Both the position numbers and the translations under genes were made by a program. From contig FTLJ01000855.1 in the NCBI GenBank assembly GCA_900155495.1, forward strand, positions 1 to 24,916: 24,916 bases of DNA, given 5' to 3'. The notes below the pieces were generated by a model. It searched no databases. It worked only from the letters and a program-made list of their open reading frames with translations, and was not told where the DNA came from. How positions within the stretch are numbered: position 1 is the first letter of the stretch; each line of letters begins with the position of its first letter. Shown here piece after piece: positions 1 through 24,916 of this stretch. Source of the stretch: Porogramme epimiltina. Taxonomy: Eukaryota > Basidiomycota > Agaricomycetes > Polyporales > Polyporaceae.

Positions 1-1111
1 CCTAGGTCCGCGAACCACTCTGCAGCGCGCTTGAGAAGTCTGCCGCGGACACGAAGGGGGCCACGCACCTGCGATGAATGGCACGCCGAGCTCCGCCGCC
101 GCTAGCTGATGGCACGTCCCCGCGAGGCCCATGAATGGGACGTTGTAGAGCTTGGCTACGCCAACCGCTGCACGAGCGAGCGCCATGTCGCGTGCGGTCA
201 TCCCGTACACCGCGCCGTGCGGCTTGATCTGCGGGGTGCGGACGCGGTTAGCGCGCCGAGGCTGAGGCGATCGCCGAGCGAGAAGCGGGGAACGTGGGAG
301 CGGGGTGGGGGAGAAGGGGGGCACGGCATCCGGGGGTCGGGGCGGACGTACGTGGTTGAGCGGGAGCCCGTGCAAGGCGAGGAAGCCGGTGAGCGCGCCG
401 ACTTGGTAGATGAAGCACGACGCGAGCTCGTCCTGTGCGGGCGGGCGGCACTTCAGGTTAGCTGTGCGCAGGCGTAGCGGAGATGAAGGGGGGGCGTACG
501 GGCTCCATGGCCATCTCACGCCTGCCCCATCCTTGCCTGTCAGGGAGGGAAGGATGCGCGCCGACGAGCACGTTGTTTTCCTTTGCGAGCCGGACGGTCT
601 CGTTCATGATCGTGAAGTCTCTGGATGCTGTAGCATAAAAGTTTATCCGGGGACGGATGGGGATAAATGGACGTACGAGGCGTGAAATCCGCACGCGACG
701 TTCGCGAGATGTATCGTCTTCATGAGTGCTTGATCATCACCCTATGACCACGGCGGCAAAGTCAAAGAAATGCTAGGCTGAGCATGTCGGGAAGAACTTA
801 CTATTTTGTAGAGCGCGAATCCCTAAAAGCATCTGAGTACGACATCCATGTGAAAGTGCTGCAGGAACTCGAAGGATGTCGATGAAAGTCGGGAGCAAGC
901 CGCGTAGCGCCCGCGCAGCTCGCTCTCTCCTCCCCATCACCATCGTCGTACATCCTAAAGGCCCAACTCTCGCCTCCTCCGCCAGCATGCAACGACTCTG
1001 AATCACGAAGCCGCTGCGTATACATGATACGGACGCCCACACCCCTCAAGAGCCGTACTGCTTGCTCACCTCGCCCATGTCGCAATTCACGGTAGCCCGA
1101 AGACGGCTCAT
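1..1111 (-). CDS. pxpA: LamB/YcsF family protein (PxpA homologue), 3' end outside window
   Basis: In bacteria PxpA works with PxpB and PxpC to open the lactam ring of 5-oxoproline in an ATP-dependent way. Seven exons join in one frame on the minus strand: 1111-1070, 822-802, 741-677, 620-500, 432-352, 228-69 and 19-1, giving 169 residues of a family that is usually about 250-260 long. The start is ATG at 1111 ([14 protein letters not shown]). Family motifs follow in order: CDMGE, a 21-nt micro-exon [56 protein letters not shown] and AEWFADL, where the window cuts it. All junctions are GT-AG and the phases agree, so nothing suggests a broken gene. It is divergent from the biotin enzyme at 1419, sharing a 307-bp promoter. 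That arrangement matches the bacterial pxp gene set and suggests a common substrate. Family assignment is sure; the fungal substrate is inferred. Confidence 0.93.
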
Positions 1112-1418
1112 GATGTTGTGGTGCGTACTTCGTGGTCTCTCTCGAGGAAAGCTCCTGAGAAAGCGCATAAAGGACATCTTTATAGCCCTACTATAGATAG
1201 CGGGTGGGGCCCATATCACGGAGCGTGTGTGGGATGATAACAAGCCTTTGGTCATGGGGTCTCTAGCTCTGAGTTCAGCCCTGCAAGAATGGCACCAAGC
1301 CGCAGATGTTGGAGCGGGTGAACTCCCGGTGCGTCCTCCGTATCTCTTCGTATCTCTGCGCACATAATCACACAAGACAACCTCAAGTGGCCTGCCCGAG
1401 AGCCTTCTGCCCCCCACA
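1112..1418. promoter_or_regulatory. Bidirectional promoter between pxpA homologue and biotin enzyme
   Basis: This 307-bp stretch separates two start codons that point away from each other, so it must hold both promoters. On the minus strand a TATAAAG lies at 1184-1178, about 67 nt before the PxpA-homologue ATG. Two sites fit the fungal GATA-factor consensus HGATAR: AGATAG at 1195-1200 and TGATAA at 1235-1240. GATA factors of the AreA/Nit2 type activate genes for secondary nitrogen sources, so nitrogen control of both genes is plausible. Two short sites can occur by chance. Confidence 0.6.
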
Positions 1419-4400
1419 ATGCCCCCATCGAACCCCACATTCGCCTCTCACAAGCTCCTCGTCGCGAACCGCGGCGAGATCGCAGTACGCATCCTTCGCA
1501 CCGCGCGGCGCCTCGGCCTGCGCACGCTCGCGGTCTACGCGCGCGCCGACGCGACAGCGCCGCACGTCGTGCTCGCAGACGAAGCGGCGCCCCTCCTCCC
1601 GGACGAGGCCGACCCGGTCGCGAACGCGCGCGGGTACGCCGACGCAGCCGAGCTCGTGCGCGTATGCAAGGAACACGGGGCGACGCTCGTACACCCCGGT
1701 TATGGCTTCCTCTCGGAGAACGCGGCGTTCGTGGAGGCGGTCGTGGAGGCGGGCGCGCGGTGGGTGGGGCCGAGGTCGGAGACGATTAAGGCGATGGGAC
1801 TGAAGCATCGCGCGCGAGAGCTGGCGGAGGAGGTTGGGGTGCCGTTGGTGCCCGGATCGAAGGGGCTGATGCGGGATTTAGAGGAGGCGGTTGCTGTGGC
1901 TGGGGACATAGGGTTTCCGGTCATGCTCAAATCGACCGCGGGTGGAGGAGGGATGGGGCTGGTGGTATGCAACAGCGTGGACGAAGTGCGAGTCAGGTTC
2001 CCGGCGACTCAAGCTCGCGCACAGGTGCGTACTAGTTCTCTTATCTGAGGCGCCGTTGCTGAATTTGTCGAGGGAGTAGTCGCTTTTCCACAACGACGGA
2101 CTATTCATCGAGAAGTACTTTCCAGCCGCGCGCCATGTTGAAGTACAGGTACGTCTCTACTCGAGTCGCATGTGTTCAATGTGCCGACCGCACAGGTCTT
2201 CGGAGACGGCGCAGGACACGCTATACACATGAGAGAGCGAGAATGCAGCGTCCAGAGGAGGCACCAGAAGGTGATAGAAGAAGCACCTAGTCCGTTCATG
2301 CTCCGCTATCCTGGTGAGTCTCCCGGTATGCCCACCTCATGCAGCGATTAAGACCCTTTGAAGCGGTCCGGGAGAGGATGTGCGAAGCAGCAGTGCGCTT
2401 GGCGGAGCACGTCAAGTACGAGTCAGCTGGCACGGTCGAGTTCTTAGTGGATGATGCTACGGGCGAGTTCTACTTCCTGGAGATGAACACGCGTCTACAG
2501 GTGCGTAACCTTGCGATATGCGCATTCGTGTCTCAAGACTCATGCTCGTAGGTTGAGCATCCAGTCACCGAGATGGTCAATCCGGGATTAGACATCGTCG
2601 AGCTTATGATCCTTCAAGGGATCGGCGCCTATGGCACCGTCTTGGATCACGCGTTCAATAAACAAGCTGTCTATGCCCCCCTCCCTAAAATACATGCTAT
2701 CGAAGTTCGCCTCTATTGCGAAAACCCTGCTGCTCAGTTCCAGCCCTCGCCCGGTGTGCTCCAGCGAGTCGAGTTTCCGAAGGCGGACTGGCTTCGAGTC
2801 GAGTCGTGGGTCGAAACGGGGACGACGATCACGCCGCACTACGACCCCCTCGCATGCAAGCTCATCGTCACTGGGGACTCGCGAGCTCAAGCCGTAGCAC
2901 GCCTTTCGGAAGCGCTCAGCTCAACGATTGTTTACGGCCCACCGAACAACGTTCAATATCTACGTGCCATATGTGCGTCCGACGTCTTTCGGGCGGGGAA
3001 TGCTACAACAACTTTCCTCGACACCTTCTCATATACACCATGGTCAGCTCTCTTCCACGATGTTTTATGCCACGTGCTTATTGGAGAGATACAGCGCTTT
3101 CACCGTCCTTAGTGGCGGCCTCGAGACGACGGTACAGGACTATCCTGGTCGCCGTATTGGTCTGGGCATCCCGAGGAGCGGCCCTATGGATTCCTTCGCG
3201 TTCCGCGTTGCGAACATCCTAGTCGGGAACAACCTCGGTACAGAAGGCCTCGAGCTCACCTTGACTGGGTGCCGTCTGCAGTTCCACACCGCAGCCGTGG
3301 TCGCCATCACTGGTGCGCCCTCCAAAGTCACGCTCAACGGGAGCGAATCGGCGATGTGGACGCGCCTCGTCATCCCCGCTGGCGGGAAGCTTACTATCGG
3401 CACCGCTCAAGGTGTGGGTATGCGCGCCTACCTGGCCATCCGTGGCGGCTTCCCCGAGATCCCAGCGTACCTCAACTCCAAGTGCACGTCGTTAGGCCTC
3501 GGGGGGTATCAAGGGCGCGCGTTGACCTCCGGGGACCAGATCTCCCTCGGCGACTGTGCGCCGCGCGCAGAAGATTCTTCGCCCCTCGCGCTCCCGCACG
3601 CGCTCATCCCGTCCTACCCCTCGCACTGGGAGATCGGCGTCCTCCCGGGGCCGCAGTGCGACGACACATTTGTGACTCCTGAAGGGATCACGAAGTTCTT
3701 TGGCGCGCCTTGGACCGTGAGCGCGGCGAGCAACAGGATGGGCGTGCGGCTCGAGGGCGGAGCGGCGATCGGGTGGGCGCGCGAGGACGGGGGCGAGGGC
3801 GGAGCGCACCCGAGCAACATCCTCGACAATGGGTACGCGTTCGGGACGGTGAACGTGAACGGAGACACGCCTGTAATCCTCGCGAATGAGGGCCCGGACA
3901 TGGGCGGGTACGTGTGCTTGTGCACGCTGGCGAGTGCGGAATTGTGAGTTTCGCTCATATGGGTGCTGGCAGACGCTAACGGAGGAATGCAGATGGAAGC
4001 TGGGACAGCTTCGGGCCGGTAGCACGGTTCGGTTCAAGAGGATCTCCTACGCGCATGCTGTACAGCTCCAAGAGCAGCAAGAACGCCTCCTCCAGGATCT
4101 CGTCGCACTCTCCTCGTCGATCCCTTCAGACCCTCCTATCTCGCTGCCCGACATTCGTGACGTCGAAGAGCAAGCCTTAGACCCGCGTCTGCACTACGTC
4201 CCTGCTGATGTAGCAGGCGGTCGGCCCGCGGTGACGTTCCGCCAAGCTAGCGACAGCGCGATCCTCGTCGAGTTCGGCGAGATGACGCTCGATCTCACCG
4301 TCCGCGCGCGCATCCATGCATTCGAGACCGAGGTCAAAGCACGCGGCATCCCTGGTATCTGGGCACTCGCGCCGTGCATACGCTCCACCATGGTCAGCTC

Positions 4401-5869
4401 GACGTGTATTGCCCTCTTCTCTACTCGAGCGCCGTTGACCTCCGTGTTCGATAGGTACACTTTGACTCCCGCACCATAACCCAGTCCACGCTTCTGTCCG
4501 CGCTCGTAGCTGCGGAGGCCGCCGTTCCGTCGCAGCTCGACGCGCTTACGTTCCCCGGACGGCGCATCACGTTCCCGGTCGTGCTCGACGACAGGTGGAA
4601 CCGCGATGCGCTCGCGCGGTATATGCGTTCTACCAGGTCGACGGCGGCGTACCTCCCTAGCAACATCGAGTATCTTGCGCGGAACAACGGGTTGCAAGAC
4701 GGTGCGGAGGCACTACGGGTCCTCGTTGGGACAGACTGGCTCACCCTTGGGGTTGGATTCTACCTGGCGTGTCCGTTCCTGGTGCCCGTGAGTGTTGGGG
4801 GAGGCTACGTGTTTTGATGCTGAATACTAACTTTATGCACAGATTGATCCTCGGTGCCGACTTGTGGGACAGAAGATGAACCCATCGCGGACGTATACCC
4901 CTCGAGTAAGTGGCCTTCCACGACGTCGCTGCGGTATCTAGCTCACCTGGTGCATAGGGCGCTATTGGAATTGCGGGAGTTGTTGCAGCGATCTACCCCA
5001 TTGAATCGCCTGGAGGGTACCAGCTGTATGGAAGGACGCTCCCTCCGTGGCAAACTTGGGGCAAGGGGAGCGACTTCAGTTTAGACAATCCATGGTTATT
5101 ACGTCCATTCGACCAGGTGAGTACGATCGACTACCACCACAGTCTCGTTTTATTGAAACGTTCTCTCAGGTCGCATACGAAGTCGTCAGCGAGGGCGAAT
5201 ATGTAGAGGTCAGATACATATCGCCTGATCATCGAGCAGGCCTACTGATCTGTACTCAAATGCAGCTAGAGAATCGATTCGATTCCGGCCAATATACCTT
5301 CAAGATCGAAGACCGCACGTTTTCGATGGCTGAGTATTCCGCTTTCGTCGGTAGTCTACAAGAAGAAATTCAAGTCTTCAAGTCTTCGCAAGCGATTGGG
5401 ACGGCTTCTGAAACGGATCGGTGCGTGCAGGGCATTTCGGACATTAGCGTATCGTACTTGATTTGACCGGTCACTGTAGGGAAAGAGTCCTGTTCGCGGC
5501 ATGGGATCAGCAGCGTCGGGAAGAGCTGCAGGCGAAACGGTCAAGCGCGCCTGATGTCCGCCCGTCAGGTATGTTGTCTTCATTGCTTCACAGCGTACTA
5601 AATTCATCATCGCGTTAGACTCGGGGGATGACGCTGGTGGCGAGCGCGTCACATCGTCGCTTACTGCGCACATCTGGAAAATTAAGTGTGCCGTAGGCGA
5701 TACTATCCAGTCTGCTGAGGACGTCTTGGTAGTCTTAGAAGCAATGAAAACGGAAGTGAGCATAGAGGCCGGGGAAGAAAACGTTGGTCGCAGAGTGAAG
5801 GGTTTCGCACAGGATGTGAAGGAGGGCGCTACTATACAGGCTGGCGATGTATTACTGTACTTAGAGTAA
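1419..5869 (+). CDS. Urea-carboxylase-like biotin enzyme: BC - PxpC/KipA - PxpB/KipI - BCCP
   Basis: Fourteen exons join in frame to about 1250 residues: 1419-2024, 2080-2148, 2196-2313, 2364-2500, 2552-3042, 3095-3943, 3993-4392, 4455-4787, 4843-4905, 4958-5116, 5170-5202, 5266-5420, 5480-5568 and 5619-5869. Residues 10-465 are biotin carboxylase: [25 protein letters not shown], the ATP-grasp glycine loop [26 protein letters not shown] and [15 protein letters not shown]. About 475-760 is PxpC/KipA ([31 protein letters not shown]). About 837-1070 is PxpB/KipI ([42 protein letters not shown]). The end is a biotin carrier domain with EAMKTE, its lysine near residue 1211. The order equals the urea carboxylase half of yeast Dur1,2, but no allophanate hydrolase domain is present. 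Beside a PxpA homologue, the likely job is biotin/ATP-dependent activation of 5-oxoproline or another lactam; urea remains possible. The first exon is notably GC-rich at third positions. All motifs and frames look intact. Confidence 0.93.
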
Positions 5870-6299
5870 GCAGCATTTCCAAATCACATCTCTCCTTTAT
5901 CTCTGATTGACATCCAGCCCAGGTCGAGTGAACGCCGAATATACTTCGAGCGCGACCACCAGCGCAAATGTATTAGTAAGGGAAGATGACTATCAATCAC
6001 GACTTCCTGGAAGTCGAATGCTGGCAGGTGCATCGAACCCCACAGATTACTCTCAGGCTTCAGCGGGGCCGTTTGCAGTCCTCGAAATCAATAGTAACAA
6101 AATGGCCATTCGGGAAGCAGGAGAAGCAGTCCTGGGTTGTGATGTGATAAGCGACGGAAAGGAAAAGAGTTTGCTGCAGCACTCGCTGTGTGCTGCGGCC
6201 AACCCTGCATAGCCCAAATACCACTGAGAGCAGGAGGCTGCCGTTCCCAATCCCATCCCACTCCACATCTTCAACTCTGCCTCTCATCTGACAACCAAC
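5870..6299. other. Intergenic: 3' UTR of biotin enzyme and promoter of BTB gene
   Basis: This 430-bp stretch lies between two genes on the plus strand. It has a 101-codon open frame (5907-6212), but the composition is not coding-like, it matches no family I recognise, and it most likely belongs to the 3' UTR. The last 80 bp before the ATG at 6300 are pyrimidine-rich, as is common in fungal 5' leaders. Confidence 0.5.
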
Positions 6300-7432
6300 A
6301 TGCCAACGACTGGTGACCCCGACTTTGATTCCTTGACAAGATGTTCAAGCCCAACTCCGTCAAGCGACTCCATCATTTCCGCCCGCTCCTCCGCGACGTC
6401 TGGTACTCCGAGTCTTCGCGGAGAGCGTTCTTTCGGTCCTATTACGGGGGGCGAATACAAACGGCATGAAACGTTCTGGTTCGACGACGGAAATGTGGTT
6501 CTCATAGCCCAGAGAACAGCGTTCAAAGTGTACCGCGGGCTTCTTGCTGCTCAATCCACCGTTCTGTCCGCCATGTTCCAAGCATCCTGTCCGGAGACCT
6601 CAGGCAACACACGCATCATCTACTTGTCAGACTCCCCATACGACGTGGCTCACTTTCTAGAGGTCCTAATTCCACATCGGGGAAAGGAGTGAGAGATTTC
6701 CCTCTAAACACGCTGTATGCTTTAACTCACCGCATCGCACCCAGCCTATATCTCAAGGATGGGCTTAAGCTTCTTAAATTCGATCACGTTTTCTCAGCGC
6801 TCCTTCTTGCTCACAAATATGGGGCCCACGATATCCTACAACAAGGGCTTGATGCTCTGAAGGAGTGTTACCCGGACACCCCTATAGATCGGGGATCACC
6901 TCCCCAGGTCCCTTTCGAGGATATACAATTCACACATGCCATCGGTGCCATCCACCTCGCCCGATTAACTGGCACTCCTTCAATCATTCCCCCGGGTATG
7001 TTGGCGTGTTGTGAACTCGGCGGGTCCATCGTATCAGGGTGGACGCGTGGGGATGGGAGTGTATTGCGACTTAGCGAAGCGGACCTCAAGAGGTGCATTG
7101 AAGGACGCGGCGCCCTTGCCACGCGTGCTCTCGCGAATAATTTTGAGATCATCCGTTGGTTCCCTAGCAAGAATTGTTCGACCCGTGCCTCGTGTAGAGC
7201 GGGGGTTGTATGGGCCATCGAGGAATTGGCCCAATCCAACTCCGAGCTCGCGCACATCATGCAGAAACTCGACATACTGGTACAAATCATCGTAAGCGTA
7301 GAAGCATCCACCTTATGCGAAAAGTGCAAGGAAGACTTGGAGAAATTCGGGAAATATCGAAGGAGGAAGCTATGGGGGGACCTTCCGGACATATTCGATG
7401 TGGCCGTCGGTGGATGGGCAGCGCGTGACTAG
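6300..7432 (+). CDS. BTB/POZ domain protein (single module)
   Basis: Two exons, 6300-6688 and 6745-7432, join at a 56-nt GT-AG intron in phase 2 to give 358 residues. After a Ser/Thr/Pro-rich start (residues 1-50), a BTB/POZ domain spans about 55-130 with the mushroom-type opening FWFDDGNVVLIAQRTAFKV. Next come an LAHKYGAHDILQQGL helix, an HAIGAIHLARLTGTPSIIP stretch and a late CEKCKEDL pair before WGDLPDIFD. BTB domains mediate homo- or heteromeric contacts, often to cullin-3 ligases. The partner and role here are unknown, and families of this kind are large and fast-evolving in Agaricomycetes. It is a paralogue of the fusion gene at 9236: the intron position and phase and the C-terminal motifs are the same. 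ATG at 6300 is the first in frame. Confidence 0.85.
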
Positions 7433-9235
7433 ATTCAGCACCAGTAGGAGCTTTAGGTGGGCATTCCCTTCTCTCCGTTTGTGTTTTTGCTCTTTCACAC
7501 ATCACTGGACTAGTACGAGCGTCGTCACAAATTGTGTTCTTTTGCGCTAGGACAGTGATTGGTTTGTAGTGAGATGTACCACGTACGACTTCATCCTTCG
7601 CCGCTCCACAATGCCAACGCGTCGCTTGTGGCCTCCAGGTCGTGCAGCGCCGACCCAAGCCGTTCGCAACGCATCATCTATGACGCAGGGCAGAAGCGCG
7701 TATTCGAGCGCGCGCGCCGTCCCGCCGAACTGAGCTCTCAACAAGGTCCGGGAGCGTAGAGAGGTGCGCACGTAAGCGACACGGCGAGTGCAGGGGACGG
7801 GCGTGATAGGAAAGGGGCGGACCTCCAGGGTACCCATCTCACATGCACGTGGTTCCGATCCTAAGGGGAACTGCAAGCGAGGATTTATTTCCTCTCCTTG
7901 TCGCGGCGCCGCATTCAAAACCGGTTTCTGGATGCCACAAAGTTATCAACGACACACGCGGCGTATACAGTTCACCCACGTAGCCTCCGATCGTACCTCT
8001 AGATTTTCGCATCCCCCAAACCACCAAGGGATTGCGCAGAAAGCTTCAACGTAGCCGGCTGCGTCGTGTCCTAAGGAGCGCATAGACCGCGCGGAATGCA
8101 ACAGTACGTCATTTGAACCCGCCTTAAGCGCGTACCAGGGCACGCTCATTTATGCGGCTTGGCGGGTGCGAGAGAGATGGGCGTAGGGTGGACGTTCTGA
8201 TGCGTCGCGCTGTAGCCCTTACCCAGCGCGGGCGGAGAGCTTGGCCCCCCGCTTCGAGGGTGCGTCAGTGACGAGCTTGAGGAAAGTGAGCATACGATCA
8301 CGGTCTAGAGAAAAGAGTGCTCAGAACGCACCTCGGTCTCAGTTTTCTTCGCTGCCTCCGCACCGAGAAGTTCTATGATCTTGCCCCCCATCAACATGTA
8401 CGAGGTTTGAGATGTACCGCTCTGGGGTGTTCGCGAACTGTACTTCATCTTCCGCGGGGGACCCCAGACGAAAGTCGCATCAGACCTTTGTCCCTAGGAC
8501 AAGTGGTGGCTTAGCTACGCACCTGCACCCGAGCCTCCACGTCCTGCTTCTCTGCTACACCTCACACGATGGCGTCCGCCTGTTCATCGATGAAAGCATG
8601 CCTCGCTGCGCCGCATGGGGGCGCAACTGACCGCCGACATCGCCTTCGCATTTGGCGAGTTGAGCCGCCTTCAACTGGAAGCGTAGGCCTGGTTAGTAGT
8701 GGCCGATCCGAACCGTCCTGTTTGTGTCACCTTCGCCCGTGGCCGCTGCTCATGTTTCGAGTGGTCTCCGCAAATGCCAGAGGGAGCGTCGGAAGAGGGA
8801 TGGAGAAGGCGTCAAATACTATGCAAGACGTTGGCTTGAGGATGGGTACATTCGCAAGGGAGACGCCAGAGAGAGCCAGGCTGCGAGGGACCATATGTCT
8901 TGGGAGCTCGAGGTTGTTAGGCGAGGGCTGCAAGACAGAACACCGAGCATTGGGGGCTGTTTTGGAGCACTGCGCACTTTAGGAGGAAGGGGAAACTTGA
9001 CAAACTAAGATAATAGAGAGTGAAACATCGAGTGAACGAGTGCCACCTGCGTCCAGGACTCCAGTCGGTCGACCGGTCGAGTTTTCCGAGCATGACTCGG
9101 CGCTTGGAGTCAGAGGAAGAGGTCACGTGCCAGAGCAACTACCGCAGCAGCGGCCGCCCGCAGCTTGCGTCTTGGATCTCGTCTCGTCGCAGAGATCGCG
9201 TCTTGCTCTCTCCTCCCAGATCCGCTCTCTGCCCT
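7433..9235. other. Intergenic stretch of 1.8 kb between BTB genes, no supportable gene
   Basis: Just after the BTB stop the sequence resembles the region after the stop at 11474 (both have TTTTGCTC followed by TAGTACGA), so the duplicated unit included part of the 3' UTR. Several open frames of 60-137 codons occur on both strands, but they overlap one another, lack recognisable motifs and cannot be joined by introns into a known protein. The last 90 bp are the 5' leader of the next BTB gene; this leader is also conserved in the truncated copy near 24800. The rest looks like decayed, once possibly coding, DNA. Confidence 0.5.
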
Positions 9236-11474
9236 ATGTCTGTCACTGCCGATCACGTAGCTGCGCAGAGTCTGAGTCCATCTCACAGCGGCTCTCCAAG
9301 TCCCAGCCGAGACGCGGCTACCCTTGGGAGTGACGATCTGTCTGATCCCTTCAACCCGGCGGCCGCGCTGAAGCGACATGAACATTTCTGGTTTGAAGAT
9401 GGAAACATCGTGCTCGTGGCGCAGCAAACAGCATTTAAAGTGTACCGTGGTCTTCTCGTAGCTCAATCTACCGTCTTCTCCGACATGTTCCAAGCCTCCT
9501 GTCGAGATGAAAGCGAAATCTTCGCCGACTCTCCAATGATTCACCTAAATGACTCCCCACACGACTTGGCCCACTTTTTAGAGGCGCTCATGCAGCTAAA
9601 TGAGAGACAGTAAGAGAATATGACCTTCGATACGCTACGATTTTTGACTCTCTATCAAATCCAGCTTGTATCATAAGGAGCCGCCCCTCCTGGATTTCGA
9701 GCGCCTATTTGCGGTGGTACAGCTTGCGCACAAGTATGGCGTAGATGATATTATGCACCAAGGGATCGAAGTTCTTACGAGGTACTACGATGATGCCGCC
9801 TATAATGAGCTAAATAAAACCCCCGATAAGCCACATAACCCTCTCGCCGATTCAGCGGATGTACACGCTATCGGCGCGATTCACCTCGCCCGATTAACCG
9901 GTACCCCCTCCATAGTTCCCGCGGCCATGTTAATATGCTGCAAGATCCCCAGAACAGTCATTTCGGGGTGGAAACGAGATGACGGAAGCGTAGTGCGCCT
10001 CAGCGAAGCCGACCTTGTACAATGGATCGTTGGCCGCGAAACACTCGCCAAGCGGGCCGTTTCGGACTATCTCAAGGTTCTCACTTGTGTACCAAGCACG
10101 GACTGTAAGACTCCGAAAGAATGCAGGGAAAGAATAATGGACGCTATGATCACTTTGAATCAATCTAGCAATGCAACTCTTGGGGACAGCCGGATCATGA
10201 TGGACCTTTTCACGCTTGCAGATGCCATATGTAAAAAGATTGACCAACAATGCTGGCCGTGCCGAGGCCATGTAGGAAAAGTCGAAGAAGAGCGATGGAA
10301 GCAAGTGTGGAAGGATCTCCCCGAGATATTCGAGTGTCTGACTCCTCGGAGCTCATCATTCCGCCCCGGCCACCTCGGGTCGGGGTCCGGCGCCGGTAGC
10401 ACTCGGGTTGCGCACTCGCCACTCTCGGCTTCGGTTATGACGTCGACAGGGCTTGTGTTAGAACGGCACCAAAGCTTTTGGTTCGATGACGGAAATGTCG
10501 TACTCGTAGCACAACAAACGGCGTTCAAGGTGTACCGAGGCCTCCTTGCAGCTCAATCCTCCGTATTCTCCGACAAGTTCCAAGTCTCTGGTGGAGATGA
10601 GAGAGAAACGCTTGACGGCTCACCCGTAATCCGCATATCCGACTCCTCGCATGACGTAGCTCGCTTTCTAGGGGATATTATTCCATTAAAGGGGAGGCAG
10701 TGAGTAAACACGTTCCGCGAAACGCTCTTTTTCCTAACACTGTATATCAAATTCAGTTTGTCCCGCAAGAATCAGCCCCCGTTGGATTTCGAGCACGTGT
10801 TCGCAACGGTCAAGCTCGCACACAAGTACGGGGTGCGTGATATTGAGCAGCAAGGGATCGCTGCTCTGGAAGCGTATTATTTGGCGATGGAAGCCGTCCA
10901 TAACAAGCCCCAGCATATCTTCATGGATTTGGAAGACGTGCATGCTATTGGCGCGATTCACCTCGCCCGGTTGACCGACACCCCTTCCATCATTCCCACA
11001 GCTATGTTGATATGTTGTGGTATCGTCAAAAGAGCGCTTTCAGGATGGAAACGACACGACGGAAGCGTGGTCACACTCAGTGAAGACGACCTCACACGCT
11101 TCATTGTCGGGCACGACACACTTGCCCGGCGTACCATCTCGGAATATCTGGAGATTTTCACTCGTGTTTCTGGCTTGGGGTGGAAGTCGCAGTGCACATC
11201 CACTGACAGATGCAAAAAGGTGGTTGTCGATAATGTGACCTCCTTGAGACGATCCTCCGATGCGAAACTCCAGGAGAGTCGCCTGATCCTTTTCAATATG
11301 CATGAAATCACGAATAGCATTGCAGATGCGCTCTATGGTTGCAATCCGTGCCGGGGTGACATAGGGAATTTTGGAAAGCAGGGACAGAGAGGAGTGTGGC
11401 AGGACCTCCCCAAGATATTTGATATAGTCGTGGAAAGATGGCCATCTCGGCTGTCCGATAGCCCGTGGTGGTAG
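9236..11474 (+). CDS. Double BTB/POZ protein: two full BTB modules fused in frame
   Basis: Exons 9236-9609, 9665-10699 and 10757-11474 join in one frame to 708 residues, about twice the single-module paralogue. Module 1 has its BTB domain near residues 44-125 (HFWFEDGNIVLVAQQTAFKV), then LYHKEPPLLDFERLF, LAHKYGVDDIMHQGI, HAIGAIHLARLTGTPSIVP, a CWPC pair and WKDLPEIFE. A Ser/Gly-rich linker of about 45 residues follows with no stop. Module 2 begins near residue 390 (SFWFDDGNVVLVAQQTAFKV) and ends WQDLPKIFD just before the stop. Each module has its own 55-57-nt phase-2 intron at the same place, so the protein arose by tandem duplication and loss of the stop and intergenic DNA. An ATG at 10437 sits where a separate second gene would start, so internal initiation or a hidden promoter cannot be excluded. 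ATG 9236 is chosen because the copy near 24752 starts at the same codon. Confidence 0.82.
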
Positions 11475-16856: not shown

Positions 16857-19800
16857 ATGGACGCCCCCGCCCAATCCAGCCGAGCAGATGCCGCGCAGCG
16901 TCCCAGCGCGTCCGGCTGCGGCACCTCGGCACCTCGGCAGCCCGACCGCACGGCTCAATCACCCGCGTCCTCGCCCAGCCAGAGCCCCAGCGCGAGCATG
17001 AGCGCCCTCGCCCACGTCCACGACGACCCCAAGCAGGCGTCCAAGGCCTCCTTTGTCGCGGACCCCGCCGTCGACGTCCCCGCATACGGCCCCCCGGTCC
17101 GCCATGGCTGTGAGCAGCCCCCGCGCCGTGTCGCAGCCCCCGCTGACCGCCCGCCAGTCTTCGCGTCGGCCTTGGCCCCGATGCGGCGGCAGTACTTCAT
17201 TATCGTCTGCAGGGCCACCCTCTTCATCACCATCCTCATGTGGATCTCCCTCCCCGTGTACGTCCCGCTCTCCCCCCGCCTCCGCACGCGCCCTCACCCG
17301 CGCGCCCGCGCAGATACTGGGGCGCGCTCACCAACTCCTCCCGCCTCACCGGCAACCTCGAGGCCTGGTTCGTCGACCTCGACGGCGACCGCATCGGCGC
17401 AGGCATGACCCGCGCAGTCCAGAACTTCGTCCCCCACGGCCCCGCCCTCAACTGGACCTTCAAGGACCCCGCAGACACCGGCGACAACGACGCCATCGCC
17501 AGCGCAGTCCTGCGCGAGCAGGTCTGGGTCGCCATCGTCGGTGAGTCCTCCACTCCCCCCGCGACGCGTTCCCCGCCCTATATGCTACCCCCCGCGCGAT
17601 CTTTATGTGTGGTCGTCCATTTGGGCGCCTATTCCCTCGGCCACACGCAAACCGTGCCGTACCAGTCTTCTTTTCCGCTTGGCGCAGTTAAGCTCTGCTG
17701 CGCGCGTGCTCTCGTTGCCCGATCTGAGGATCGTGGCAGATTCTGGGTGACCATAACACCAGGCGGCGTCGTCGGGATGTTCGACTGCGCCGGAACAGCG
17801 TGCAAGGCATCGAAGATCCTCATCTGCGATGCTTTGCGCGTTTATCGGGCACTGCACCAGTGTTTGCGAGGTCTCCGATACGAGACGACCATCCTGCCGC
17901 AATCCACCACATTCAGTTTCGCCTTATGTCTTGAGTGTTACCCGACGATTTTTTTCTTTCGCAACTTCGTTTCGTGCAGGCAAATAGTGACTGGATGGTG
18001 GGCCGGTGGAGCGTTATGAAAGTAAACCTACATAGGCTGATCTTGGAGCCTCCTTTTCTCTCTTGCTCTACATAGCCTCGTTACACTCGACTCTCGTATA
18101 GCGGTGTGACGGTGGGCGTGGTACTGAGTGGACACTTGCACAACGCGCATATAGCCATGCGGCGCGAGAGCATCTATCTGTATGGCCTTAGCGGGTGTCT
18201 CCCTACCTCCGCAACCCGGCCGCAGGGCGCTTTCATGGCAATTTCGCCTTGAGGCCGCTAGGTGCTCGTGACGCATACGTAGTCAGCGTTTGGCCGTCAC
18301 GTCCTCCATCACTTCGCCTGAATCCAATTTGACGCATCCTCCCGCTTGTTCCACACCTGTTGCATTTCAGGCTCGGCGTAGTTTCGTTTTGTTGCGTTAT
18401 AACGAACTGCACATGTACAGTCTCTGAGAGCAGTCCGCCACGTACCGCCGTTGTTTCCGCGTCTTGTAATCCAAAAAAACCTATCAGCTGGTGCTCATCT
18501 CCGCCCGCAGTCCAGCCAAACGCAACGTCACGACTTTCTCACGCACGAATCAACGGAGACACGACTTACGACCCCTCCACCGCAATTAGGGTATACTATT
18601 CCCAAGTACGTCCTCCCGCCCCCGCCCCCGTCGCCCCTTCCCCGCACTTTCCATTTCCTCCTCCCCGCCCCCGCTTCTCCCGCGCTGATCGCCTCCCCAC
18701 CCTGCCCCCGCACAGGCGCGCCAGGAGATCGCGACGGGCAACTTCATCGTCCCGCTCACGACGCAGCTCATGCAGGCGACGACGAGCGCGTACTCGACCT
18801 CGACCGCCCAGCGCTACTTTGCGCAGATCAACTCCAACGGCGAGCCCAATGCCACTGCGCTGCAGCTCATTGCGAATGCGCCGCAGACGATCACGCCCGG
18901 CGTCAGCTGGACGATGGTCAACCTGCGCCCGTACGAGTGCGTTGAATTTTATGTGGCCTTTGGTCTGCGGATGCTGATGTATTTTCTAGGGCTCCGGCTG
19001 CGCAGGCAGTCACCCTCGTCGGGAACATCTTCCTCTGTATTTTCTCGTACGTACCTTGCACACTCAACATCCTCGTTCGGATGCTAACACCCTTCGCACA
19101 GATTCATGATCGTACGTCCTCCATGCGTCAGAACATGCGCATACACTCACCCCTGACATAGACGATGGCCAACTCGACAGCCCGCGCGCTCGTCGAGCCC
19201 TACATGGCCTTCCTCCCCTACATCGGCCTGCGCCTCGCCGTCCCCCTGCTCGCCTACTTCCCGCTCAGCCTCAGCTTCGCGATGATCAACCTCGCGTTCA
19301 AGCTCCCCCTCGGCACCAAGTCCGCCCCCTTCCCCCTTTCTTGCGGGCACGCGCTGACACGTCACGCAGGTTCGGCCTCGGCCCGGGCTTCATCGTCTCG
19401 TTCTTCTACATCTACATCGGCATGGCCGCGCTCGGGCTCTCGCTCGAGGCGATGATCACCATCCTCTCGCCGCGCTATACTCCGCTCTTCCTCTTCGTGC
19501 TCGTGCGTTTCCTATCCTGCTGTCTGCGTGCTCTGGTGGCCGCTGGCTGACCGCTGCCGTGGCAGATCCTATACAACATCTCGCCGGTGGTGCTCCCTGA
19601 CGAGCTGCAGGCGCCGTTCTTCGCGTACGGCAACGGCTTCCCCATCTTGTGCGTCTCTCCTCTCCCCCCAGACGTTCACTCTGCTAACCCATTCCACCTC
19701 TCCAGCAACCTGTGAGCCCGCGCCTCGCCGCCCGAGTTCCTTCGTACCGAGTGCTAACCCCCCACACGCAGATCCCAAGCGCTCCGGACGATCCTCTTCG

Positions 19801-24119: not shown

Positions 24120-24752
24120 ATGAATCGCGCCGATAGCGTGTACATCTGCTAAATCGGCGAAGAGCTTGTTTGGCTTGTCGTAGGCAGCATCCTTATTTGC
24201 ATAGTACTCCGTGAGAGCTTCTATCCCTTGTTGCACAATGTCGTCCACGCCATACTTGTGCGCAAGCTAGACCACCGCGAACAGGCGCTCGAAATATAGG
24301 AGGGGCGGAGCTTTATGATACAAGTTGGGTTCGATACAAAGAGTCAGAGCTTGTAGCATCCCGAAGGTCGTATTCACTTACTGTCTCCGGTTTAGTTGCA
24401 TAAGAGCCTCTAGAAAGTGGGCTAAGTCGTGTGGGGAGTCGGATAGGTGAATCATTGGAGAGCCGTCGAAGATTTCGCTCTCATCTCGACAAGAGGCTTG
24501 GAACATGTCGGAAAAGACGGTGGATTGAGCTGCAAGGAGGCCACGGTACACTTTGAAAGCGGTTTGTTGCGCCACGAGCACAATGTTTCCATCTTCAAAC
24601 CAGAAATATTCATGTCGCTTCAGTGTGGTCGGGTTGAAGGGATCGGACAAATCGTCGCTCCCATTGGTATCCGCGTCCCGGTTGGAACTTGGAGAGCTGC
24701 TGTTGGACAGGCTCGAGCTCTGCGCAGATATGTGATCGGCAGTGGTAGACAT
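24120..24752 (-). pseudogene. Truncated, decayed BTB/POZ gene copy
   Basis: On the minus strand, exon 1 (24752-24382, MSTTADHISAQ to MQLNRRQ) is intact and closely matches the first exon of the double BTB gene at 9236, including EYFWFEDGNIVLVAQQ. It fails after that. The intron acceptor before 24324 reads AA instead of AG. The second exon has an in-frame TAG at 24269-24267 where the intact copy reads Gln (VVQLAHKYG), and similarity stops at about 24120 after HAIGAIH. About 200 residues of the module are missing. Similarity to the intact gene also covers the 5' leader up to about 24850, so the copy came from DNA, not mRNA, and still has its intron. An aberrant 124-residue protein ending at the retained intron (TAA at 24380-24378) could still be made. 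Confidence 0.88.
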
Positions 24753-24916
24753 AGGGGCAGAGAGTGGATCTGGGGGAGAAAGAAAGATGCAATAAATTGC
24801 GACGAGACGACATCCAAGACGCAAGCTGCCGCTGCAGTAGGGCTCGACAATTACAATTACTTACGCTGAATCGGCCGTAATTAATAATACGGTTGATTAC
24901 GGATTACGCTGGGCGG
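24753..24916. other. Upstream flank of BTB pseudogene, window edge
   Basis: Up to about 24850 this matches the 5' leader of the BTB gene at 9236. Beyond that the sequence turns AT-rich and holds TTACGCTG twice (near 24863 and 24903) with several GATTAC/AATTAC words. It could be the edge of another repeat, but the window ends here. Confidence 0.4.

Follow-up and report, generated by a model that had tools for sequence, protein, structure and literature searches.

The window, by which we mean the whole stretch of 24,916 nucleotides of Porogramme epimiltina DNA analysed here (GenBank assembly GCA_900155495.1, contig FTLJ01000855.1), begins with two divergently transcribed genes. One encodes a multidomain biotin enzyme whose relatives are often named "urea carboxylase" and the other encodes a LamB_YcsF (PxpA-type) protein. 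We read the pair as the basidiomycete form of the Aspergillus nidulans lamA/lamB locus and call the two proteins LamA and LamB; from sequence comparison we give a probability of roughly 0.6 that they are this locus and together form one ATP- and biotin-dependent lactamase. Given the A. nidulans genetics, the likeliest reaction would be, by analogy, conversion of 2-pyrrolidinone to gamma-aminobutyric acid (GABA).

In the proposed mechanism the biotin carboxylase part of LamA would use ATP and bicarbonate to form carboxybiotin, which the carrier would move to the PxpC/PxpB-type carboxyltransferase of the same protein; there a small lactam would be carboxylated on its ring nitrogen. The N-carboxyl group would weaken the amide, LamB would open the ring, and loss of CO2 would leave the amino acid (GABA from 2-pyrrolidinone). 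How PxpA-type enzymes use ATP in ring opening is unsettled as far as the literature that we searched in part shows. In a two-protein fungal system whose ATP-using, biotin-carrying part is visible, labelled bicarbonate could be used for a direct test of the chemistry.

The two divergent genes

LamA is encoded on the forward strand at 1419-5869 by 13 exons (1419-2024, 2080-2148, 2196-2313, 2364-2500, 2552-3042, 3095-3943, 3993-4392, 4455-4787, 4843-4905, 4958-5116, 5170-5420, 5480-5568 and 5619-5869). The spliced model is open throughout, with no internal stop and with 12 GT-AG introns of 47-62 bp, and gives a protein of 1271 residues. It is a gene model without transcript support, in which ten junctions were set by hand by use of reading frames and similarity and the last two introns are those with the best splice-site score among 119 frame-keeping combinations. 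Pfam profiles matched the product in the order Biotin_carb_N, CPSase_L_D2, Biotin_carb_C, CT_A_B, CT_C_D and Biotin_lipoyl, and a search of the 1271-residue product with Pfam profiles gave no amidase domain. The biotin carboxylase part occupies residues 11-467 (1449-3022), the PxpC-like carboxyltransferase A-B part residues 497-772 (3162-4038; CT_A_B, 292.9 bits), the PxpB-like carboxyltransferase C-D part residues 838-1054 (4234-5053; CT_C_D, 113.4 bits) and the biotin carrier residues 1204-1269 (5663-5860; Biotin_lipoyl, 29 bits), all on the forward strand. The carrier has an EAMKT motif, which we take to be the biotinylation site as in biotin carriers in general, and the expected target is Lys1232 (codon at 5747-5749, forward strand). 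A sequence-only reading of this DNA had described an intact gene with PxpC and PxpB domains between a biotin carboxylase and a carrier, and both the open 1271-residue model and the Pfam order agree with that description. Over the carboxyltransferase region, LamA shares 75% identity with a protein of Trametes polyzona that carries the name urea carboxylase. Of 728 LamA matches, the best 120 were listed, and all named rows in that list are basidiomycetes, as judged by their names. In a profile search of the assembly, CT_A_B had a single match in the whole genome.

The LamB gene occupies the reverse strand (1-1111), where seven exons (1111-1070, 822-802, 741-677, 620-500, 432-352, 228-69 and 19-1) were read to give 169 residues before the contig ends, compared with about 250 residues in a complete LamB_YcsF protein. 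The protein scored 215.1 bits against PF03746, thereby passing the curated cut-off of 22, and its spliced frame aligns to positions 3-165 of the 239-position profile before the contig ends. Proteins of Lentinus (Lentinus brumalis), Earliella, Daedaleopsis and Epithele, to which LamB is 91% identical, are among the best 120 of 6477 matches. Base 1 of the window is also base 1 of the contig (C660 in an assembly of 41.9 Mb and 926 contigs), and the simplest cause of the truncation is an assembly break. As only 169 residues precede the contig end and a whole-assembly search for the remainder with the full-length relative P0121, which shares 91% identity with the part present, hit this window only, the gene cannot be called intact, as it had been. 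The start codons at 1111 (reverse strand) and 1419 (forward strand) leave an upstream region of 307 bp (1112-1418) common to both genes, which is the separation and the divergent arrangement first noted from the sequence.

Pairing across fungi and the lam locus of Aspergillus nidulans

Pairing of LamA with LamB is kept in many species and is not peculiar to the P. epimiltina genome. The count was based on the best 120 LamA and best 120 LamB matches, of which the named rows were used (114 rows from 112 species for LamA and 103 rows from 100 species for LamB) and 6 and 17 unnamed rows, respectively, were excluded. Each protein cluster was represented by the size of its longest contig, and equal size served as a proxy for linkage that does not include orientation. 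Among the matches listed, LamA and LamB were found on contigs of exactly equal size in 48 of the 58 species common to both lists, including contigs of 16,457 (the shortest), 22,348 and 25,521 bases. Consecutive locus tags were seen for the pair in four species, Coniferiporia weirii, Paramarasmius palmivorus, Marasmius oreades and M. crinis-equi. Hence, the adjacency for which the sequence-only reading had proposed a survey is not confined to this genome. Because of the profile scores and the linkage in other species, chance is excluded as the cause of the gene pair.

The pair is also seen outside the basidiomycete matches. According to the available part of PMC8675399, a LamB gene and a urea carboxylase gene lie inside one inserted segment of 5-6 genes in Trichoderma, and four further species have homologues of the two side by side; whether the segment is a urea cluster is left undecided there. 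Two species appear to have more than one copy. Mycena galericulata has two LamA-LamB pairs (P0057/P0070 with P0211/P0212), as judged by equal-size contigs, and Favolaschia claudopus has two LamA copies (P0085/P0088 with P0195), both of which suggest duplication.

In A. nidulans, lamA presumably encodes a urea amidolyase-like (urea-carboxylase-type) protein, and we take lamA and lamB to be divergently transcribed. The AmdR protein of A. nidulans is described in a passage of PMC8016842 as controlling five genes, those for the catabolism of acetamide (amdS), omega-amino acids (gatA and gabA) and lactams (lamA and lamB), with credit for the AmdR regulon genes given to Katz and Hynes 1989. A relationship of ycsF to the lactam (2-pyrrolidinone) gene lamB is given in a passage of PMC3412718 that cites Richardson et al. 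1992. In the portion consulted of Strope 2011 (PMC3073912), A. nidulans is reported to have one amidase-less urea carboxylase of 1,241 residues and to lack both a urea amidolyase and a separate amidase of that type. There, amidase-less urea carboxylases are found in many, not all, Basidiomycota and Pezizomycotina and have a history separate from that of Dur1,2, and the Cryptococcus protein groups with other fungal urea carboxylase proteins with 97% support. Table 2 of that paper gives Coprinopsis cinerea, under the name Coprinus cinereus, as a species without the gene. The words "lamA" and "lactam" are absent from the main text of that paper (the search there was for these two words and did not include "lamB").

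The P. epimiltina and A. nidulans loci thus share a LamB gene accompanied by a second gene, which in A. nidulans serves lactam catabolism, and the single amidase-less protein of 1,241 residues leads us to infer that A. nidulans lamA is of the same protein type as LamA. The difference lies in the host, here a fungus whose small introns and closest relatives point to a polypore-like basidiomycete. Linkage of a LamB_YcsF gene to an amidase-less urea-carboxylase-like gene, as expected of a lam locus, is present in the window. Hence, the locus is most likely a further example of a known lactam-utilisation gene pair with a genetic precedent dating from 1989, for which the chemistry outlined above is our proposal. 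The arrangement had been thought new to eukaryotes, which the publications of 1989 and 1992 contradict, and the fallback of that reading, that the substrate might be another lactam, agrees with the lactam genes lamA and lamB described in PMC8016842. Within the accessible text of open-licence papers, our literature search found neither a description of a biotin-dependent LamA/LamB or biotin carboxylase-PxpABC lactamase nor an assay of a fungal amidase-less "urea carboxylase".

Prokaryotic relatives and phylogeny

Prokaryotic loci in which PxpA is accompanied by biotin genes were found. PxpA, both carboxyltransferase subunits and biotin carboxylase share a single stretch at L020, where the biotin carboxylase is about 6 kb away on the other strand, and at L021 (also listed as L091), L022, L106, L107 and L108. 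The same genes are found together on plasmids of Shinella, Thioclava, the archaeon Haladaptatus and Rhizobium N731. The split sets of Leucobacter L022, L107, Shinella L112, Thioclava L113, Haladaptatus L115 and Rhizobium L116 resemble the fungal system in having PxpA, both carboxyltransferase parts, biotin carboxylase and carrier together (in L112, L113 and L115 the gene taken as the carrier, on account of its size, is named acetyl-CoA carboxylase). They differ in that the subunits are separate, whereas the fungal parts form one chain in the urea carboxylase order.

In Thermomicrobium, a small "acetyl-CoA carboxylase" gene (a carrier by size), both carboxyltransferase subunits, PxpA and BioY follow one another, with no biotin carboxylase in the stretch. 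The BioY biotin transporter gene directly follows PxpA in Thermomicrobium roseum (L110 7817-8422), a hint that the PxpA set needs biotin. Paenarthrobacter has PxpA and carboxyltransferase genes adjoined by genes for a class III aminotransferase and an aldehyde dehydrogenase, with no biotin genes in the stretch, and L109 and L025-L031 have PxpA with no biotin carboxylase detected in the stretch. In Rhizobium N731 (L116 3062-7782), genes for a biotin/lipoyl protein and a biotin carboxylase lie beside PxpB-PxpC-PxpA, which raises the question of whether some true 5-oxoprolinases use biotin. The entry PDB 9yx5 contains chains named allophanate hydrolase subunits 1 and 2 plus a biotin carboxylase alpha3 chain; these would fit a physical complex, and their company may be incidental.

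Urea carboxylases were found in other company. The actinomycete search covered 246 genomes, of which 34 gave strong matches, and 35 stretches were analysed; tblastn pieces below 45 bits (below 60 bits for AtzF) were excluded from the locus tables, except for the carrier query. In 30 actinomycete stretches (L075-L105 minus L091), CT_A_B precedes CT_CD where both are visible, which is the urea carboxylase order. Allophanate hydrolase is present in 22 of these 30 and absent from 8 (L083, L101 and L103 of the latter being at contig edges), and biotin carboxylase was detected in 19. Plasmid loci were picked by eye for variety (6 of 60 rows in one listing and 8 of 60 in another). The six plasmid urea carboxylases examined all have allophanate hydrolase (atzF), and two more plasmid regions, of the eight in the second listing, have urea carboxylase with atzF. 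Some loci are less regular. In L077, L078, L086, L089 and L102, which have the carboxyltransferase in urea order, no biotin carboxylase, allophanate hydrolase or PxpA was detected in the stretch, yet they are nested within the urea carboxylase clade. L079, L080, L084 and L095 have allophanate hydrolase with no biotin carboxylase detected in the stretch. The cyanobacterial PxpB/PxpC-type pairs L023, L024 and L032 form a clade of their own, and their stretches showed neither biotin carboxylase nor PxpA nor AtzF.

Concatenated carboxyltransferase trees were constructed from a chosen subset of loci, with 55 rows and then with 49 rows (13 dropped and 7 added); the bacterial sample consisted mostly of actinomycetes and plasmids, and green-algal sequences were not included. 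Fungal LamA proteins formed one clade (support 100), urea carboxylases plus the urea amidolyase KlUA formed another (100), and the two clades joined (100). With classic PxpBC as the assumed root, the sister of LamA plus urea carboxylase consists of the PxpA-linked L020-L022 with Thermomicrobium, and the tree, if so rooted, allows that LamA kept an ancestral link to PxpA. In the LamB tree, the fungal clade joined the PxpA proteins of Thioclava (52.5% identity) and L106 (47%) with support of 100, apart from the classic PxpA rows. Derivation of LamA and LamB from one bacterial operon was considered and rejected because the two trees place the proteins with different relatives.

Urea, 5-oxoproline or a lactam as substrate

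LamA shares much with urea carboxylase and urea amidolyase (TIGR02712; KlUA, PDB 3va7 and 5i8i). Biotin carboxylase, CT_A_B, CT_C_D and carrier are in one chain and in the same order. The match to TIGR02712 (urea_carbox) runs from end to end at 1271.6 bits, which is below, although near, the cut-off of 1303.85 of this bacterial model, and the match to the KlUA structure 3va7 is 902 bits. These similarities, the sister position of LamA to the urea carboxylases in the carboxyltransferase tree and the database names that read "urea carboxylase" favor an ordinary urea carboxylase, the allophanate from which would be hydrolysed by an unlinked amidase, with LamB as an unrelated neighbour or a later partner. 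We consider this explanation unlikely. Unlike urea amidolyase, LamA has no allophanate hydrolase domain, and it has a PxpA-type neighbour. In the P. epimiltina genome, urease was matched, and the search for allophanate hydrolase, in which intron-rich genes match exon by exon only, gave 11 matches, of which none exceeded the cut-off or extended beyond profile position 264 of 563. The earlier argument that a missing allophanate hydrolase speaks against urea thus holds both for the protein and for full-length matches in the genome.

The carboxyltransferase residues also separate LamA from the urea enzymes. The comparison included 14 fungal LamA rows, 20 urea-type rows (19 AtzF-linked plus KlUA; L079, L080 and L084 among these have no biotin carboxylase detected in the stretch) and 13 PxpA-linked rows (three from L020-L022, three from L106-L108 and seven classic PxpB). 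The KlUA positions inspected were 1330, 1331, 1332, 1392, 1393, 1548, 1549, 1583 and 1584, and alignment columns alone were counted as evidence. All 20 urea-type rows have the LGD-loop Asp (KlUA 1584). It is found in none of the 14 LamA rows, which have a gap there, nor in L020-L022 (0/3), L106-L108 (0/3) or classic PxpB (0/7); it may be a mark of the urea type. Phe992 is present in all 14 LamA and all 13 PxpA-linked rows, the residue being Val in 20 of 20 urea-type rows. The KlUA 1330 column gives no clean split, with Asn in all LamA rows (14/14) and in L020-L022 (3/3) and with Asp (12), Asn (6) or Met (2) in the urea-type rows. In all, 26 carboxyltransferase columns are fixed differently between LamA and the urea-type rows. 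Plain urea use is unlikely because urease is present, no full-length allophanate hydrolase was matched and the urea-type Asp is absent. The sub-threshold TIGR02712 score, the LamB linkage in 48 of 58 species and the atzF gene adjoining the plasmid urea carboxylases in six of six cases also count against it. Plain urea carboxylase was dropped as the leading label on the missing hydrolase, the residue pattern, the curated score and the LamB linkage.

Another possibility is that the same two proteins convert 5-oxoproline (pyroglutamate) to glutamate. The PxpA, PxpB and PxpC families are all represented here (LamB_YcsF, CT_C_D and CT_A_B), as they are in E. coli, where pxpB, pxpC and pxpA are adjacent, and the Rhizobium set of the E. 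coli PxpBC type is adjoined by biotin carboxylase and biotin/lipoyl protein genes. The E. coli genes themselves have no biotin genes within a 7.5-kb stretch, unlike the Rhizobium set and unlike the fungal protein, in which the PxpB- and PxpC-type parts are fused into a biotin enzyme. LamA scored 160.9 bits against the PxpC equivalog (cut-off 500) and 40.3 bits against the PxpB equivalog (cut-off 145.55), both below the cut-offs, and the classic carboxyltransferase rows are the least similar of the tabulated groups, with 26% mean identity to LamA. The family of the eukaryotic 5-oxoprolinase is that of Hydantoinase_A and Hydantoinase_B. The P. epimiltina genome has matches to Hydantoinase_B (C47) and Hydantoinase_A (C83 twice and C74), which may include an ordinary eukaryotic 5-oxoprolinase; the genome search established no complete gene for such an enzyme, the Hydantoinase_A and Hydantoinase_B matches being on different contigs. 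A piece of the Hydantoinase_B family gene resembles hydantoinase and caprolactamase subunits, and two of the Hydantoinase_A matches are about 8 kb apart in opposite orientation (G000:C83:61312-62169 and 70595-71455). Growth of C. glutamicum on 5-oxoproline is reported to need pxpTABC in the part of PMC13274462 available, whereas passages of PMC8016842 and PMC3412718 connect the lam genes of A. nidulans with lactam and 2-pyrrolidinone. We regard 5-oxoproline turnover by the pair as improbable. As a substrate 5-oxoproline is unsupported, and 5-oxoprolinase was set aside as the leading label because there was no positive evidence for it and hydantoinase/oxoprolinase-family genes lie elsewhere in the genome. 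From the 5-oxoprolinase label of the sequence-only reading we retain the pairing, the doubt about urea and the lactam fallback, and give up 5-oxoproline itself, the intact PxpA gene and the novelty in eukaryotes.

There is a small chance that the pair is a biotin-dependent ring opener for a different amide, which could be a cyclic imide, a ureide or another lactam. L020-L022 differ from both LamA and the urea type at 14 of the 26 LamA-specific columns, and hence the fungal pocket would be largely its own. Against this, the one such locus that has been defined by genetics serves 2-pyrrolidinone use, according to a passage of PMC3412718.

Several observations weigh against reading the pair as a lactamase of the lamA/lamB type. 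LamA is sister to the urea carboxylases rather than to the PxpA-linked sets (support 100), and at the 26 diagnostic columns L020-L022 are LamA-like at only 3, urea-type-like at 9 and neither at 14. The nearest relatives of LamA and LamB differ, though both are near PxpA-linked biotin systems. PxpA was found in none of the 30 urea-order actinomycete stretches, and no fused prokaryotic homologue lies beside PxpA among the loci examined. The Rhizobium N731 (L116) carboxyltransferase is sister to E. coli PxpBC (support 100), and because this set is E. coli-like, biotin neighbours alone are no mark of a lactam enzyme distinct from 5-oxoprolinase. The best genome match to the eukaryotic GABA transaminase profile was 49.2 bits against a cut-off of 567.15, in a search with little power where genes are rich in introns. 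In 10 of the 58 species the contig sizes of the LamA and LamB matches listed are unequal; some of these cases may be different strains or assemblies and some true separation. The sections of Strope 2011 (PMC3073912) available place the fungal urea carboxylases both with a bacterial group of broad distribution and with those of green algae (100% bootstrap), which have companion amidase genes, and report that some Dothideomycetes with the gene (Stagonospora and Cochliobolus) carry an unlinked allophanate-type amidase; the algal and Dothideomycete cases would suit a urea carboxylase.

A broader and more tentative proposal, to which we give somewhat less than an even chance, is that biotin-dependent lactamases form a family spanning archaea, bacteria and fungi, in which PxpA and a carboxybiotin-driven PxpB/PxpC carboxyltransferase would open lactams through N-carboxylation. 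On this view, urea carboxylase would have branched off from the family by exchanging its PxpA partner for allophanate hydrolase. The name "urea carboxylase" would then be wrong for the many Agaricomycete proteins that bear it, these being urea-carboxylase-like fused lactam enzymes with a PxpA partner. If true, the naming of a widespread fungal protein would be corrected and an origin of urea carboxylase suggested.

The remainder of the window contains a tandem family of BTB/POZ-type frames in the right flank (6228-11474, forward strand, and 24378-24860, reverse strand), in which neighbouring frames are alike by eye. The BTB matches at 6228-6692, 9648-10703 and 24378-24860 are weak yet over the cut-off. 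A frame at 17147-18019 has a DUF3533 match below the cut-off (25.8 versus 27.6 bits).

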